Assembly: GCF_000455345.1 (NCBI RefSeq)
Contig: NZ_HG315691.1
Span: 568,217-632,216, forward strand
DNA: 64,000 nucleotides
From: Halopiger goleimassiliensis
GTDB taxonomy: Archaea > Halobacteriota > Halobacteria > Halobacteriales > Natrialbaceae
Direction: 5' to 3'
The notes beneath the pieces were generated by a model. It did no database searches and was not told the DNA's origin. It worked only from the letters and a program-made list of their open reading frames with translations. Both the position numbers and the translations under genes were made by a program. Below are positions 4,290 to 21,027 of this stretch, in pieces (the stretch's first letter is position 1; each line of letters starts with the position of its first letter).

Positions 4290-6746
4290 TCAGCCCGGAC
4301 CGGCGTAGTCGGTGCCGATAACCTCGCGGATCCGTTCGGCCGTCACCTGACCCACGCCGTCGGCTTCCTGCAACTCCTCCTCACTGGCGATCATCACTTC
4401 CTCGACGGTGCCGAACTCCGAGAGCAGCGAGCGCGCCGTGACGGGACCGATCTCGGCGATCGAGGCGACGACGTACTCCTGCTGTTCGGCCAGGGTCTTG
4501 GCCTGCTTCTCGCCGTGGATCGAGACCTCGCGGTCGGCCACTTCCTGTTCCCGGCCGGCGATCGTCGCCAGGAGTTCGGTGGTGTCCTCCTCGCTCTCGG
4601 TTCGCAACACGCTCGCGCCGAAGTCGACGGCCAGACTCGAGAGCGCACCCCGAATCGCGTTCGGGTGGATATCGCGCTGTTCGTACAGCCCCTCGCCCTC
4701 GACGACGACGATCGGCCGCGAGTAGTGTCTGGTCATCGCGCCGACCTGCTCGAAGACCGACCGGTCCCCGCCGACCAAGGAATCGACGAAGTCCGCGGTC
4801 GATTTCCGCTCGACGACGACGCGATCGGAGAGGACGTAGTCGCCCACGTCGAGCGTCTCGAGGCGAACCTCGTACTCCTCGCGCCGTGAGAGTTCACGCG
4901 CGATGTTCGCGTCCATCTCGCGCTGGTCGGCGACGATCGCGACAGCGTCGCCCTCGGCCGACGGAGCGTGCGTCTCGACGTCCTCGTCCCCCCCAGGTGC
5001 GTCGGAATCGGTACTCGGATCCGAGTGCTCCGAGCCGAACGTCTGGAGTCCCGGCTGGTCGGCAACCCCCCCGTTTCCGGTGGACGAATCGCCGACTGCG
5101 TCGGTGTCACCCGCCCCGCCGTTTACGTTCACCCCGCTCTCGTCGGGATCGCCCTCGAAGTCGGTCAGCGCCTGCTGGGAGTCGTCGAGTTCCTCCTCGA
5201 GGTCGTCGGCCATCCCCTTTAGCTCGCGGAGTTCGTCCTCCATCTCCTGTTCGCGGCGTCGGGAGATCCAGAAGTAGGCCTCGTCGCGGGTGTCCTCGGC
5301 CATCAACACGACGACCCGACCTTCCGACTGGCGACCCGTCCGCCCCTTGCGCTGGATGGAGCGGATCGCGGTCGGTACGGGTTCGTAGAAGAGCACGAGG
5401 TCGACCTCCGGGACGTCCAGGCCCTCCTCGGCGACCGAGGTCGAGACCAGCACCTCGAACTCGCCCGCGCGGAACTCGTCCAAGACCTCCTGTTGCTCGG
5501 TCTGGGTCATCCCGTCGCTGCCCTCGCGGTCGCCCTGGCCGACGAACCGCTTGGCGTCGAAGCTATCGGAGAGGAAGTCCGTGAGTGCTTCCGCCGTATC
5601 GCGGGACTCGGTGAAGACGATCACGCGCTCGCCGTCCTCCAATCCCAGCGTCTCGGCGAGCAGCATCCGCGTCTTGCGGTATTTGGGGTGGATCTCGTCG
5701 AAGTCCTCGGCCTTCCGCATCGCCTCGCGAACGCGGGGGTCCGAGACGAGTCGCTGGCTGGCCTTCGACGCGCCCGAGGACCGGGCCTGGTTGCGCTGGC
5801 GGTCGAAGTACCGGCGGACGGCCTCGACGCTCTGGGTCTCGACCAGCGTGACCGCCTGGCGGAGCTTCATCACCTCGGCGTGGATCGACATCCCCTCGAA
5901 CCCCTCTGACTGGTCGTTGTTGATCAACTGCTGGAGCTCCGCGCGCATCCTGTTCAGGTCCTTCTGGGACTGATCCGGTTGCGTCGAGTCCGCGATGCCG
6001 AGTTCCTTCAGCTTCTCGAGGCGCTCTTTGATCACCTCGTTGAGCGCGTCGCGGATCTCCAGCACCTCCTCGGGAAGCTGGATGCGCTCCCACTCGACGT
6101 CGGTGTCGTGGGTGTACTCGGCGACGTCGGCGTCGTCCTCGGTCATCACCTCGACCTCCTGGATGCCGAGGTTCTCACAGACCTCGAGAATCGCCTCCTC
6201 GTCGCCGCCGGGCGAGGCCGACATCCCCGTCACGAGCGGATCCGCGGCGTCGGCGTGGTAGCGTTCGGCGATGTAGTTGTAGGCGTAGTCGCCGGTCGCG
6301 CGGTGACACTCGTCGAAGGTCAGATGCGTCACGTCCCGCAGCGAGATCCGTGAGCCGACGAGGTCGTTCTCGATGACCTGCGGCGTCGCCAGCACCACCG
6401 TCGCCGCCTCCCACAGCGCGGCCCGGTCGTCGGGACTGACGTCGCCCGTGAAGACGACGATTTCCTCGTCGGGGACCTGCAGCGCCTCGCGGTAGAAGTC
6501 GGCGTGTTGCTGGACGAGGGGTTTCGTCGGCGCGAGCATCAGGGATTTCCCGCCGACCTCCTCGAGCCGACGGGCCGTCACCAGCAGGCTCACGGTCGTC
6601 TTCCCGAGCCCCGTCGGGAGACAGACGAGCGTGTGGTCGTTCGCGGCCGTGCCGGCGAGTTTCAGCTGGTAGAGTCGTCGCTCGAGGAAGTTCGACTCGA
6701 GTAACGGATGCTCGATCGACGGCGGTTCCTCGTCCTGGGCTGCCAT
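4290..6746 (-). CDS. hef: Hef: DEAH-type helicase with XPF-family nuclease domain
   Basis: An 818-residue repair enzyme of the Hef/FANCM-Mph1 family that processes stalled forks and branched DNA. Domains: SF2 helicase with Walker A PTGLGKT (about 44-50), motif II DECH (145-148) and a C-terminal helicase half with QRKGRTGR. A disordered acidic linker covers about 530-605. The ERCC4 nuclease starts near 606 with VERKSTADF (about 645-653, the catalytic E-R-K-x3-D). Tandem helix-hairpin-helix repeats occupy 765-810. ATG 6746 is chosen because the in-frame upstream codons encode non-halophilic sequence and the helicase begins directly after it. The linker DNA carries an ORB-like sequence (5066-5085). 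Confidence 0.93.
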   Translation of the reverse strand: MAAQDEEPPSIEHPLLESNFLERRLYQLKLAGTAANDHTLVCLPTGLGKTTVSLLVTARRLEEVGGKSLMLAPTKPLVQQHADFYREALQVPDEEIVVFTGDVSPDDRAALWEAATVVLATPQVIENDLVGSRISLRDVTHLTFDECHRATGDYAYNYIAERYHADAADPLVTGMSASPGGDEEAILEVCENLGIQEVEVMTEDDADVAEYTHDTDVEWERIQLPEEVLEIRDALNEVIKERLEKLKELGIADSTQPDQSQKDLNRMRAELQQLINNDQSEGFEGMSIHAEVMKLRQAVTLVETQSVEAVRRYFDRQRNQARSSGASKASQRLVSDPRVREAMRKAEDFDEIHPKYRKTRMLLAETLGLEDGERVIVFTESRDTAEALTDFLSDSFDAKRFVGQGDREGSDGMTQTEQQEVLDEFRAGEFEVLVSTSVAEEGLDVPEVDLVLFYEPVPTAIRSIQRKGRTGRQSEGRVVVLMAEDTRDEAYFWISRRREQEMEDELRELKGMADDLEEELDDSQQALTDFEGDPDESGVNVNGGAGDTDAVGDSSTGNGGVADQPGLQTFGSEHSDPSTDSDAPGGDEDVETHAPSAEGDAVAIVADQREMDANIARELSRREEYEVRLETLDVGDYVLSDRVVVERKSTADFVDSLVGGDRSVFEQVGAMTRHYSRPIVVVEGEGLYEQRDIHPNAIRGALSSLAVDFGASVLRTESEEDTTELLATIAGREQEVADREVSIHGEKQAKTLAEQQEYVVASIAEIGPVTARSLLSEFGTVEEVMIASEEELQEADGVGQVTAERIREVIGTDYAGPG
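5066..5085 (-). promoter_or_regulatory. ORB-like sequence inside hef linker
   Basis: On the minus strand this reads GTCCACCGGAAACGGGGGGG, resembling the haloarchaeal origin recognition box (TCCA-n3-GAAAC followed by a G-string). It lies in codons for about residues 554-560, in the Gly/Asp-rich linker of Hef. Binding by Orc1/Cdc6 is inference. Confidence 0.35.
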
Positions 6747-6896
6747 CGACGGAGGTTCATCGCCGCCGTGAATAAGGATTCCCGTACCGCGGCGAAACTG
6801 AAACGCGTGGGGTCCACCCGAGGATCGGGACGGCTCCAGTCCGTTCTGACGGATGGATGGCGACCCGGGAAAGGACCTTGTAGTATACGGACGCGT

Positions 6897-7109
6897 GTGA
6901 GCAAATTCATTCGCGTCGACGAGGAAATCCACGCGGCGCTCGAGTCGCTGAAAGGCGACGATGAGACGTTCGACGATCTCCTCTCGCGGCTGGTCGAGGA
7001 GCGTCGCGAAACGGCCCGTGAAGGCGCGGGCCTCTGGAACGACACCGACGCCGCCGAGAAAGCTCGTGAGGCGCGATCGGAGATGAAGCGCAGCGTCGGC
7101 GATCGATGA
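6897..7109 (+). CDS. vapB: VapB-family antitoxin
   Basis: A 70-residue protein starting at GTG 6897 (SKFIRVDEEIHAALESLK). This is the N-terminal strand-helix of the archaeal VapB/COG1753 antitoxins (beta-strand then DDETFDDLLSRLVEE). The charged C-terminal half (AAEKAREARSEMKRS) would wrap the toxin. It overlaps the PIN toxin gene by 4 nt (ATGA), the usual antitoxin-first order. It should bind both VapC and its own promoter. A TATA-like TAGTATACG (about 6881-6889) lies close to the start, too near to be its core promoter. Confidence 0.85.
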   Translation: MSKFIRVDEEIHAALESLKGDDETFDDLLSRLVEERRETAREGAGLWNDTDAAEKAREARSEMKRSVGDR

Positions 7110-11238: not shown

Positions 11239-11263
11239 GACCCCTCCGTTTCAACTGGAGATC
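11239..11263 (-). promoter_or_regulatory. ORB-like sequence upstream of small membrane peptide
   Basis: On the minus strand: CTCCAGTTGAAACGGAGGGG. This is a close match to the ORB core with G-tail, about 60 bp upstream of the 29-residue peptide gene and 2.7 kb from the origin. The match is as good as those at the origin itself. Confidence 0.55.
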
Positions 11264-13993: not shown

Positions 13994-14024
13994 CCACCCC
14001 CACCCCTTTGTTTCAACTGGAGAC
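13994..14024 (-). promoter_or_regulatory. Origin recognition box with G-string, left
   Basis: On the minus strand: CTCCAGTTGAAACAAAGGGG followed by TGGGGGTGG. A full ORB core plus extended G-string, pointing left, away from the AT-rich segment. Confidence 0.75.
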
Positions 14025-14193: not shown

Positions 14194-14310
14194 GAAAACT
14201 CTAGTAAGGTCTAGTAACACTACAACCAAACTCTAGTACTCTAAATCTATTAACTGCAGTGCGGATACTGTTTCTCACCCACAATCATAAATGCTGCTGT
14301 TCTAGAGAAA
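14194..14310. other. Putative DNA unwinding element
   Basis: The most AT-rich part of the origin, flanked by the two strong ORBs whose G-strings face outward. It contains the hexamer CTAGTA three times (14201, 14211, 14233), i.e. spaced 10 and 22 bp, close to whole helical turns. Inference: site of initial melting by Orc1/Cdc6. Confidence 0.6.
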
Positions 14311-14374
14311 CCCCTCCCCCACCCCCTCCGTCGTCCTGTTCCACCTGAAATGAAGGGGTGGGGGAGGGGTGGTG
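14311..14374 (+). promoter_or_regulatory. Origin recognition box with two-sided G-string inverted repeat, right
   Basis: The core is TGTTCCACCTGAAATGAAGG at 14338-14357 and the G-string GGGGTGGGGGAGGGG at 14355-14369. The exact complement CCCCTCCCCCACCCC is at 14311-14325, so a perfect 15-bp inverted repeat brackets the core. The G-run could form a four-stranded structure on either strand. Confidence 0.72.
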
Positions 14375-14803: not shown

Positions 14804-14912
14804 CGGTGTTCCTCTGCTTCGTTTGCATCAACTGGATCCGAGCCGAGTATCGATAGGCGGAATTTGGCTCTTCTGGGCCATCTACTCGCTCATACTCCTC
14901 GTCTCGGTCGCG

Positions 14913-14940
14913 GATTCCAGTCGAAATGAGGGGGTACGAG
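14913..14940 (+). promoter_or_regulatory. ORB directly upstream of orc1/cdc6 start codon
   Basis: TTCCAGTCGAAATGAGGGGG is an ORB match ending about 10 bp before ATG 14949. This position suggests the initiator could bind its own leader (autoregulation); inference. Confidence 0.55.
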
Positions 14941-14948
14941 TACGACGA

Positions 14949-16706
14949 ATGTCAGACGACGATACGGACTCATCACGTGCGGACGACCTGGACGTCGACG
15001 GTGTGAGCGACATCGATCTCGACGGCGGGGACGATTCGGAGACGACGTCGGGATTCTCGACGCACCTCGAGGAATCGGATCTGGGCGACGAGGAGTCGAA
15101 CCAGGGGTTGTTCGACGATCTGCTCAGCGGCGAACCAATCTTCGAGAACAAGGAGGTGTTGCGGCCGTCCTACACGCCCCACGAACTCCCCCATCGGAAC
15201 GATCAGATCAACAAAATGGCGACGATTCTCGTGGCTGCGCTCCGCGGCGAGACGCCGTCGAACATCCTGATCTACGGGAAGACGGGGACCGGCAAGACCG
15301 CCAGCGCGAAGTTCGTGAGCAAGGAACTCGAGAGCACCTCCCAGAAGTACAGCGTCCCCTGTGACGTCGAGTACATCAACTGCGAGGTCACCGACACGCA
15401 GTACCGGGTGCTCGCACAGCTCGCGAACAAGTTTATCGAGAAGAACCAGTCGCGCATCGACGACCGTATCGACTCGCTGGAGTCGTTGCTCGAGCGCGTC
15501 GACGAGTTCGAGGACGAATCGACGACCGATCGGACGGATCGGTCGACGGAACCGTTCGAGTTCGGTGCGGACGTGGAGGGCGAAACAGACCCCGGGTCGA
15601 CCAATATTTCGGATGGAGGAAATAACTCGGATACAAGGATGGGGTCTGGTGGTTCTCCAGGTGAAATTGAGGGGTTCGATTCGACGGGTGGTTTGGACGC
15701 CGACGGCCCTGACGTCGGTCGCGACGAGGGGCCAGCCCATCCCCTCGCGTCGACGCAGTTCGACTCGCCCGCGGAGGTAGAATCCAAAATCGACGAACTC
15801 GAGGACGACAGAGACTCCTTCGAGGAGGTCCCGATGACCGGCTGGCCGACCGACCGCGTCTACAGCGTCTTCTTCGACGCCGTCGATTACGACGAACGCG
15901 TCGTCGTCATCATGTTAGACGAGATCGACAAACTCGTCGAGAAAAGCGGCGACGACACCCTCTATAACCTCTCGCGGATGAACTCCGAACTCGAGAACTC
16001 CCGGGTATCGATCATCGGTATCTCGAACGACCTGAAGTTCACCGATTTCCTCGATCCGCGCGTGAAATCGTCGCTCGGCGAGGAGGAGATCGTCTTCCCG
16101 CCGTACGACGCGAACCAGCTCCGGGACATCCTCGAGCATCGCTCGGACGTCGCGTTCAAGGACGGCGCGCTCTCGGACGACGTGATCCCGCTGTGTGCGG
16201 CCTTCGCGGCGCAGGAACACGGCGATGCCCGTCGCGCGCTCGACCTGCTACGAACTGCCGGCGAACTCGCCGAACGCTCCCAGGCCGAGACCGTCGCCGA
16301 GGAACACGTCAGGCAGGCCCAGGACAAGATCGAACTCGATCGGGTCGTCGAAGTCGTCCGGACGCTTCCCACGCAGTCGAAACTCGTCCTCTTCGCGATC
16401 ATCTTGCTCGAGAAAAACGGCGTCCACAGCATCAACACGGGCGAGGTGTACAACATCTACAAGCGGCTCTGCGAGGAGATCGACGCCGACGTCCTCACCC
16501 AGCGTCGGGTGACGGACCTCATCAGCGAACTCGACATGCTCGGCATCGTCAACGCCGTCGTCGTCTCGAAGGGTCGGTACGGTCGCACGAAGGAGATTAG
16601 CCTCTCGGTCCCGCAGGAGGAGACCGAAGCCGTCCTCCTGTCGGATTCGCGCCTCTCGGACATCGACGACATCCAGCCGTTCGTCCAGGCACGATTCGAG
16701 AACTGA
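14949..16706 (+). CDS. orc1: Orc1/Cdc6 replication initiator (AAA+ ATPase)
   Basis: A 585-residue origin-binding initiator. An acidic N-terminus (1-60) precedes the AAA+ domain with Walker A GKTGTGKT (110-117), Walker B IMLDEIDKL (321-329) and sensor/arginine region (SNDLKFTDFLDPRVKSSLG). The C-terminal winged helix contains TQRRVTDLISELDMLGI. It is much longer than typical (about 400 residues) because about 95 acidic Gly/Asp/Ser residues are inserted at 185-280, between Walker A and B. The DNA of this insert carries an ORB-like site. ATG 14949 is chosen; an upstream in-frame TTG would add an implausible hydrophobic leader. Confidence 0.93.
   Translation: MSDDDTDSSRADDLDVDGVSDIDLDGGDDSETTSGFSTHLEESDLGDEESNQGLFDDLLSGEPIFENKEVLRPSYTPHELPHRNDQINKMATILVAALRGETPSNILIYGKTGTGKTASAKFVSKELESTSQKYSVPCDVEYINCEVTDTQYRVLAQLANKFIEKNQSRIDDRIDSLESLLERVDEFEDESTTDRTDRSTEPFEFGADVEGETDPGSTNISDGGNNSDTRMGSGGSPGEIEGFDSTGGLDADGPDVGRDEGPAHPLASTQFDSPAEVESKIDELEDDRDSFEEVPMTGWPTDRVYSVFFDAVDYDERVVVIMLDEIDKLVEKSGDDTLYNLSRMNSELENSRVSIIGISNDLKFTDFLDPRVKSSLGEEEIVFPPYDANQLRDILEHRSDVAFKDGALSDDVIPLCAAFAAQEHGDARRALDLLRTAGELAERSQAETVAEEHVRQAQDKIELDRVVEVVRTLPTQSKLVLFAIILLEKNGVHSINTGEVYNIYKRLCEEIDADVLTQRRVTDLISELDMLGIVNAVVVSKGRYGRTKEISLSVPQEETEAVLLSDSRLSDIDDIQPFVQARFEN
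15653..15678 (+). promoter_or_regulatory. ORB-like sequence inside the orc1/cdc6 linker
   Basis: TCTCCAGGTGAAATTGAGGG followed by G-T. It encodes about residues 235-243 of the Cdc6 insertion. The 50 bp just upstream (15601-15650) are unusually AT-rich for this coding region (ATATTTCGG, GGAAATAACTC). Confidence 0.5.
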
Positions 16707-19434: not shown

Positions 19435-21027
19435 GTGCCACTCGAGGCTCCGGCCCGGATCGTCAGCGAACTCACGAGCCGCGGCTACAACGCCGAACGC
19501 GAAGCCGTGACGAAACTCGCCGCGGCGAACGATCCCGCGACGGCCCTCGAGCGGGTGCTCGAGGAACTGCCGGAGGACGCGCTGGTGGTTCGGGCCGACC
19601 ACGTCGAAGCGGTGCTCGCGAACGGGGCGGACGGTGGCCGAACCGACGCGGCCCGCTCCACGACCGAGCCGTCGTCCCCGTCGCAGACGCCGCCGTCGAC
19701 GACCGACGACCCCTCCGTTTCGACTGGAACCGAACCGACCCCGTCGGGCGGATCGACGGCCCGATCTCCAGTTGAAACAGGGGGGTCGAACGCCGCCGGG
19801 GGACGAGCGGTCGATCCCGAGGTACGATCGCTCGAGATCAGCAACGACATGACCGGCCAGAGCACCGGGACGGGGGAGTACGAGGACTTCGTCGCCGTCT
19901 TCCGGGACCGCCTCGAGAAACTGGGCTCGAAACTCAAAGGGCGGGTCAACCACCGACCGGCGTCGGCGATCGAGGACATGCCTGGCGGATCGGAGGTCGC
20001 GATGGTCGGCCTGGTCAACGACGTCCGATCGACGGCCAGCGGCCACTGGCTGATCGAACTCGAGGACGCTACCGGGACCTTCCCGTGGCTCGTGATGAAA
20101 GACCGGGAGTACGTCGACCTGGTCGACGAACTGCTCTGTGACGAGGCGCTGGCGATGGAGGGGACCCTCTCGGACGATTCGGGGATCGCCTTCGTCGACT
20201 CGATGCACTTCCCGGACGTGCCCCGCACCCACGAGCCGTCGACGGCGGACCGACACGTCCAGGCGGCGCTGATCAGCGACGTCCACGTCGGCAGCGAGGA
20301 GTTCATGGCCGACGCCTGGAACCGCTTCGCCGACTGGCTCCACACCGAGGAGGCGGGCCACGTCGAGTACTTGCTGCTCGCCGGCGACATGGTCGAGGGC
20401 GTCGGCGTCTACCCCGATCAGGACGAGGAACTCGACATCGTGGACATCTACGAGCAGTACGAGGCCTTCAGCGAGTACCTGAAACGCGTGCCCGGCGACG
20501 TAGAGATCGTCATGATCCCGGGCAACCACGACGCCGTGCGACTCGCGGAACCCCAGCCGGGGTTCGACGAGGAACTGCGGGAGATCATGTCGGCCCACGA
20601 CGCACGCATCGTGAGCAATCCGTCGATGGTGACGGTGGAGGGCGTCTCCGTGCTGATGTACCACGGCGTCTCGCTCGACGAGGTCATCGCCGAACTCCCG
20701 GAGGAGAAAGCCAGCTACGACGAGCCACACAAGGCGATGTACCAGTTGCTGAAGAAACGCCACGTCGCCCCGCAGTTCGGGGGCCACACCCGCCTCGCTC
20801 CCGAGGAGAAGGATTATCTGGTCATCGACGAGGTACCCGACATCTTCCATACGGGCCACGTCCACAAGCTCGGGTTCGGGAAGTACCACGACGTGCTCGC
20901 GATCAACTCCGGCTGCTGGCAGGCCCAGACCGACTTCCAGAAGAGCGTCAACATCGATCCCGACGCCGGGTTCGCACCGATCGTCGACCTCGATACGCTG
21001 GACGTGACCGTCCAGAAGTTCAGTTGA
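19435..21027 (+). CDS. polB: DNA polymerase D small subunit DP1 (proofreading exonuclease)
   Basis: A 530-residue small subunit of the archaeal replicative polymerase PolD. The N-terminal helical domain (1-62) starts at GTG 19435, supported by TATCCTTTTTT about 30 bp upstream. A disordered Ser/Thr/Pro linker covers 64-127. An OB-like domain is followed by a calcineurin-type phosphoesterase: SDVHVGSEE, LAGDMVEG, PGNHDAVR, MYHGVS and HTGHVHKLGF. These bind two metals for 3'-5' exonuclease. The large subunit DP2 is not in the window. The linker DNA carries an inverted pair of ORB-like sequences. Confidence 0.93.
   Translation: MPLEAPARIVSELTSRGYNAEREAVTKLAAANDPATALERVLEELPEDALVVRADHVEAVLANGADGGRTDAARSTTEPSSPSQTPPSTTDDPSVSTGTEPTPSGGSTARSPVETGGSNAAGGRAVDPEVRSLEISNDMTGQSTGTGEYEDFVAVFRDRLEKLGSKLKGRVNHRPASAIEDMPGGSEVAMVGLVNDVRSTASGHWLIELEDATGTFPWLVMKDREYVDLVDELLCDEALAMEGTLSDDSGIAFVDSMHFPDVPRTHEPSTADRHVQAALISDVHVGSEEFMADAWNRFADWLHTEEAGHVEYLLLAGDMVEGVGVYPDQDEELDIVDIYEQYEAFSEYLKRVPGDVEIVMIPGNHDAVRLAEPQPGFDEELREIMSAHDARIVSNPSMVTVEGVSVLMYHGVSLDEVIAELPEEKASYDEPHKAMYQLLKKRHVAPQFGGHTRLAPEEKDYLVIDEVPDIFHTGHVHKLGFGKYHDVLAINSGCWQAQTDFQKSVNIDPDAGFAPIVDLDTLDVTVQKFS
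19708..19788. promoter_or_regulatory. Inverted ORB-like pair inside DP1 linker
   Basis: Left element (19708-19730, minus strand): TTCCAGTCGAAACGGAGGGG. Right element (19763-19788, plus strand): CTCCAGTTGAAACAGGGGGG. Both are near-perfect ORB cores with G-tails facing outward and about 33 bp between them, encoding DP1 residues 92-118 (linker). Confidence 0.65.

Follow-up and report, generated by a model that had tools for sequence, protein, structure and literature searches.

The haloarchaeal gene polA1, which encodes the PolD small subunit DP1, harbors an inverted pair of origin recognition boxes (ORBs) that is in all probability real and kept by evolution as DNA, and we regard this pair as a putative Orc1/Cdc6 element. 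It was analyzed in a window of 64,000 nucleotides (the whole stretch of DNA studied, positions 568217-632216 of a 3.9-Mb haloarchaeal genome), which contains oriC1, orc1/cdc6, and polA1. The features are listed in Table 1. A first-pass annotation of this DNA had described both elements as close ORB matches; they turned out to match TCCA-N3-GAAAC-N3-GGGG exactly. The coordinates also bore out its placement of the pair in DP1 residues 92-118 (codons 92-118 of polA1, ~275 bp inside the gene) with the G-tails pointing outward, whereas the distance of 33 bp that it gave had to be corrected to 38 bp, as measured between the two TCCA 5' ends. This part of DP1 is a variable linker, and relatives with solved structures (6knb, 5ihe, and others) align mostly from residue 148.

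Table 1. Features of the window discussed in the text (positions within the window)
Feature	Position	Strand	Remarks
Left oriC1 ORB	14003..14021	(-)	With extended G-string; comparison element
AT-rich element of oriC1	14200..14299	unstranded	GC 0.39
Right oriC1 ORB	14340..14358	(+)	With extended G-string; comparison element
ORB upstream of orc1	14916..14934	(+)	1 mismatch, core type; ends ~15 bp before likely ATG
orc1/cdc6	14949..16706	(+)	NCBIfam NF001625, 659 bits; Pfam Cdc6_C; adjoins oriC1
ORB within orc1 coding sequence	15656..15674	(+)	1 mismatch, core type
polA1, PolD small subunit DP1, 530 aa	19435..21027	(+)	NCBIfam NF003116, 998 bits
Left ORB of DP1 pair, TCCAGTCGAAACGGAGGGG	19710..19728	(-)	Exact TCCA-N3-GAAAC-N3-GGGG; core type, without extended G-string
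DP1 ORB spacer	19729..19766	unstranded	38 bp, GC-rich; length fixed, sequence variable
Right ORB of DP1 pair, TCCAGTTGAAACAGGGGGG	19767..19785	(+)	Exact TCCA-N3-GAAAC-N3-GGGG; core type, without extended G-string

Chance and Codon Usage as Sources of the Pair

In the 64-kb window, eight ORB cores were present that were exact or had a single mismatch, as against 0.11 ± 0.35 in shuffles. The whole 3.9-Mb genome contained eight exact ORB matches and no match to a reversed control. For the codon-shuffle control, synonymous codons were resampled with the usage of each gene itself, and the polA1 sample comprised 20 kb around DP1 from 100 same-family relatives and from 20 loci of other families. Such a comparison had been suggested in the first-pass annotation, as had an inspection of the DNA pattern at synonymous positions in relatives. 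One or more sites turned up in 0.9% of the shuffling trials and the pair in 0.004%, whereas at least one ORB was seen in 115/121 real polA1 genes and the pair in 88/121 (73%). For the same-family genes alone, the corresponding counts were 99/101 and 83/101.

Codon usage was scored only at positions with a constant encoded residue, and the rest of the same polA1 genes served as background. At the synonymous positions of the ORBs, rare codons proved to be fixed: GTT (Val) was used in 100% of cases versus 6% in the background, ACT (Thr) in 100% versus 3%, GGA (Gly) in 99% versus 9%, and CCA (Pro) in 99% versus 5%. GAA (Glu) likewise reached 100% at ORB codons versus 25%, and ACC (Thr) was avoided (2% versus 44%). 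Chance or codon bias as the source of the DP1 pair is ruled out by the codon shuffling together with the codon usage. The earlier proposal that these are real ORBs under selection is thus strongly supported by the codon shuffles and by the conservation in relatives, and binding of Orc1 is predicted.

Conservation and Taxonomic Spread

A strict pair pattern was defined in which both ORBs are perfect to GGG and the spacer measures 25-55; the palindromic layout was counted on both strands. A perfect pair was found in 145/391 Halobacteria genomes, representing 44/86 genera, and nearly always once per genome, while the reversed control pattern matched none of the 391 genomes (0/391). All of the strict-pattern matches from other families that were compared by hand with DP1 coordinates (27/27) lay in or at the N-terminal part of DP1. 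Under relaxed matching, the pair was also seen in named Haloarcula, Halomicrobium, Natronomonas, Halobaculum, Haloparvum, and others. Among 133 distinct pairs, the gap was exactly 38 bp (start-to-start 57 bp) in 117, the remaining start-to-start distances being 54, 69, or 75 bp. The ORBs themselves were 87-88% identical among distinct pairs, the spacer 38% (mean pairwise), and the flanks 37-40%; mean GC of the spacer in the 133 pairs was 0.65. Linker length varied widely, with the pair lying ~100 to ~500 bp ahead of the conserved DP1 domain.

One ORB was retained in 39/150 loci and none in 6/150, with Halorubrum salinum, Haloplanus, and Halonotius among the single-ORB clades. Because several clades have one ORB or none, the pair is not essential everywhere. 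The strict pattern, which may miss diverged ORBs, was matched in 0/312 genomes from other classes of the phylum. The wide spread within the Halobacteria and the absence from the 312 genomes of other classes point to an origin of the DP1 pair that predates the radiation of the Halobacteria or falls in its early phase, and that would have been followed by partial losses.

Two Sequence Classes of ORBs

The oriC1 ORBs of the window lie 337 bp apart on either side of an AT-rich dip and possess a second G-run, GGGGTGGGGG, that is missing from the DP1 ORBs. The DP1 pair had been said to be arranged as at the origin. This holds for the orientation and not for the spacing (38 versus 337 bp), the AT-rich dip, or the second G-run. 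Over the core, the logo of the DP1 ORBs agrees with that of the oriC1 ORBs. The extended G-string (GGGG-T-GGGGG) was present in 99-100% of 232 oriC1 ORBs versus 1-2% of 216 DP1 ORBs, and in 0-1% of the orc1-gene ORBs. On the basis of these frequencies, two sequence classes can be distinguished, origin ORBs with the extended G-string and gene ORBs without it.

The orc1/cdc6 gene of the window, whose likely start is the ATG at 14949 in a reading frame that reaches upstream to a TTG at 14823, is the presumed source of the protein predicted to bind the DP1 pair. In 108/132 genomes, the zone at the start of orc1 likewise contained an ORB, and 66/132 had a counterpart of the ORB within orc1. These core-type ORBs at the start of and inside orc1 are possible autoregulation sites.

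Single ORBs were also noticed elsewhere. An exact core at 5066-5084 (-) falls in the gene for the Hef nuclease (4290-6932, -), within low-complexity sequence that separates the helicase from the nuclease part. An isolated exact core-type ORB at 11241-11259 (-) is apparently intergenic and lies ~2.7 kb left of oriC1; several relatives possess ORBs similarly far upstream. Elsewhere in the genome that contains the window (L008, ~1501-1519; G000:C2:442671), the start codon of an HtpX-like protease gene (MRNEG...) lies within TCCATGCGAAACGARGGGG, a sequence also present in four further genomes; this is either a coincidence of coding or a further ORB.

Independence of the Pair from oriC1

polA1 usually lies a few kb from orc1 and oriC1. 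The pair was nevertheless kept in genomes in which polA1 is 0.2-1.5 Mb from oriC1. In one of these (G052), only four exact ORBs exist genome-wide: two at 755.2/755.5 kb form an oriC1-like pair, and the two at 948.2/948.3 kb are those of DP1. A second genome (G065) shows the same layout. In a third (G005), where orc1 maps to 431-432 kb, the DP1 pair is located at 238 kb, a distance of 194 kb from orc1, and the oriC1-like pair is found 1.5 Mb from the DP1 pair at 1,776.7/1,777.0 kb. Since relocation of polA1 away from oriC1 and orc1 leaves the pair in place within the gene, the pair is not merely a part of the origin cluster, and this explanation is ruled out. Among loci with enough flank, those with orc1 no more than 7 kb away had the pair in 92/129 cases and the others in 13/21, counts that are descriptions rather than test statistics because relatives are not independent.

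Two further observations concern the origin itself. In four genomes of one genus (G005, G052, G065, and G087), the oriC1-like pair lies ~0.2-1.3 Mb from orc1, an exception to the haloarchaeal linkage of origin and initiator. In four loci of one genus (L054, L076, L105, and L116), the ORB pair with extended G-strings is found downstream of DP1 and not upstream of orc1, and it is followed by a further inverted pair, 81-85 bp apart; these ORBs lie ~1.4-2.3 kb and 4.2-4.9 kb downstream of the start of the conserved DP1 domain. oriC1 has apparently been relocated there.

A Possible Docking Site for Orc1 in polA1

We give nearly an even chance to the reading that the DP1 pair is a class-wide, non-origin docking site for Orc1/Cdc6 that acts in cis on the expression of polA1. 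Orc1 is known to bind ORBs as monomers with defined polarity (PMC12141716, PMC7776575). Two Orc1 monomers would occupy one ORB each, the winged-helix end of one turned toward that of the other over the fixed 38-bp gap, an arrangement that, with a constant gap, suggests a cooperative complex. Located ~275 bp inside polA1, such a complex could act as a roadblock that slows or blocks RNA polymerase. When Orc1-ATP is plentiful, less of the PolD small subunit would be made, and more when Orc1 has been used or inactivated by initiation. The core-type ORBs at the start of and inside orc1 might do likewise for orc1, and as a possible second effect Orc1 may be sequestered from oriC1. Orc1 as the binder, as well as every regulatory step including its direction, is what we infer from these patterns. 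The fixed spacing, the free spacer sequence, and the core shared with the oriC1 ORBs were counted in favor of docking by Orc1. Against an action on polA1, repression is more usually exerted from a promoter than from within a gene, and titration of the initiator predicts much of the same pattern. With somewhat greater reserve, we propose that Orc1/Cdc6 could also be a gene regulator across haloarchaea, and that in-frame core ORBs in polA1 and orc1 might couple the production of polymerase and of Orc1 to the state of initiation.

Titration itself, which together with a link between initiator level and PolD expression had been among the functions suggested in the first-pass annotation, is rather unlikely, though it carries appreciable weight. 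The pair would then be a site for titration or inactivation of the initiator that, in the manner of datA or oriC2D, sequesters Orc1 or stimulates its ATP hydrolysis; polA1, usually 4-5 kb from oriC1, would be duplicated just after firing and re-initiation thereby limited, and the position inside polA1 would be a historical accident. There are precedents, since oriC2D of Haloarcula, which is rich in ORBs but is not an origin, exerts negative control over oriC2, likely via titration of Cdc6E (PMC3936714), and DnaA boxes enriched near oriC of Escherichia coli titrate DnaA (PMC12371093). Moreover, polA1 of G052 equals the oriC1-like pair in its number of exact ORBs, and further core ORBs surround oriC1 in the window. 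However, the DP1 element offers two sites only, nearly always as one pair per genome, as compared with 11 ORBs in oriC2D, and the origin-linked timing is lost where the pair stays in polA1 0.2-1.5 Mb from oriC1. Titration alone would also need no fixed gap of 38 bp.

Another protein sharing the ORB core, either an Orc1 paralogue or an unrelated regulator, is an improbable binder. Several Orc paralogues occur in the genomes searched, and the DP1 ORBs are devoid of the extended G-string of the oriC1 ORBs, but their preferences at variable positions overlap with those of the oriC1 and orc1-gene ORBs, and oriC1/orc1 is the conserved replicator in these genomes.

About as improbable, if not slightly more so, is an ancillary or dormant replication origin within polA1, a function that the first-pass annotation had considered on the strength of the initiator-binding sites. 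Inverted ORBs with outward G-tails are indeed seen at oriC1 as well. However, GC around the DP1 pair in the window is 0.65-0.74 versus 0.39 at oriC1, and no AT-rich element is present there. The start-to-start distance amounts to 57 bp versus 180-356 bp at oriC1. The extended G-string is absent, and in Haloarcula hispanica an oriC1 whose ORBs were mutated in their terminal G-strings no longer supported autonomous replication (PMC3936714). Furthermore, the pair is not intergenic beside orc1/cdc6; it lies inside polA1, which in G005 is 194 kb from orc1. The absent AT-rich unwinding element, the gap of only 38 bp between the sites, and the absent extended G-string disfavor the earlier suggestion, and a normal origin was rejected on these three grounds.

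It is very improbable that the inverted repeat folds as a hairpin in the polA1 mRNA with an incidental likeness to ORBs. The segment from the window does fold well as RNA (-49.3 kcal/mol, z -4.5). The arm statistics, which ignore kinship, nevertheless tend to disfavor a hairpin: the arms paired at the shuffled level in 4/6 variable stem positions, and at least one mismatch at variable stem positions was found in 91/124 pairs. Positions 13 (77 versus 74 ± 1.0) and 6 (95 versus 86 ± 2.7) were ~3 S.D. above the shuffles, an excess that shared ancestry could explain. Single ORBs persist after the other arm has decayed, and each arm fits the core of the intergenic oriC1 ORB. Independent protein sites fit the inverted repeat better, with a small chance left to a role as RNA. 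Selection at the protein level on a short linker motif of DP1 (VSTG...PVETxG) is the least probable explanation of all; although the encoded residues are also largely conserved, the motif is rejected because rare codons are fixed at synonymous sites, the ORBs disappear when codons are shuffled, and the same cores recur in other contexts, both within intergenic oriC1 and at the start of orc1.

Significance and Comparison with Known Systems

To our knowledge, it is largely unknown how archaea match initiation to replisome supply. The DP1 pair is a specific and ancient candidate element in an essential polymerase gene, and its conservation suggests an undescribed control link between the start of replication and the polymerase. 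A full-text literature search, which did not extend to subscription papers and preprints, retrieved no earlier report of ORBs inside polA1; the gene has been mentioned only as a neighbor of oriC1, without intragenic ORBs (PMC4441112). What appears to be new is the setting of a known binding element, which is deeply conserved, intragenic, and of fixed geometry, with Orc1 as its predicted ligand. The DP1 pair adds a clear case of putative regulatory DNA selected within a coding sequence. ORBs with and without the extended G-string may mark "fire here" and "bind here" sites, respectively, and origin finders restricted to intergenic ORBs beside orc1 would miss the DP1 pair. If the docking site acts as proposed, it would constitute an archaeal counterpart of DnaA autoregulation, placed within coding sequence and set apart by the lack of the second G-run that origin ORBs carry.

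The DP1 pair shares with haloarchaeal oriC1 the ORB core, the divergent orientation, and the presumed binder. It differs in being intragenic, in its GC-rich 38-bp gap, and in the absence of the extended G-string; moreover, oriC1 is intergenic next to orc1, whereas the DP1 pair is sometimes maintained far from orc1. oriC2D of H. hispanica is likewise a non-origin group of initiator-binding elements in a haloarchaeon, but it comprises 11 ORBs in a 722-bp intergenic region, involves Cdc6E, and is limited to few taxa (PMC3936714), in contrast to the two intragenic, oriC1-type, class-wide ORBs of DP1. datA/DARS and the origin-proximal DnaA boxes of E. coli are also initiator sites outside the origin that are thought to limit initiator activity (PMC12371093). 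Unlike the DP1 pair, they are bacterial, serve an unrelated initiator, consist of more boxes together with sites for accessory proteins, and do not reside in a replicative polymerase gene. Finally, Orc1-2 of Saccharolobus, an Orc1 paralogue that is a transcription regulator, demonstrates that a protein of the Orc1 family is able to regulate genes; it is, however, a non-initiator paralogue and recognizes a hexanucleotide promoter motif (DDRE) rather than ORBs in gene bodies (PMC9738581).
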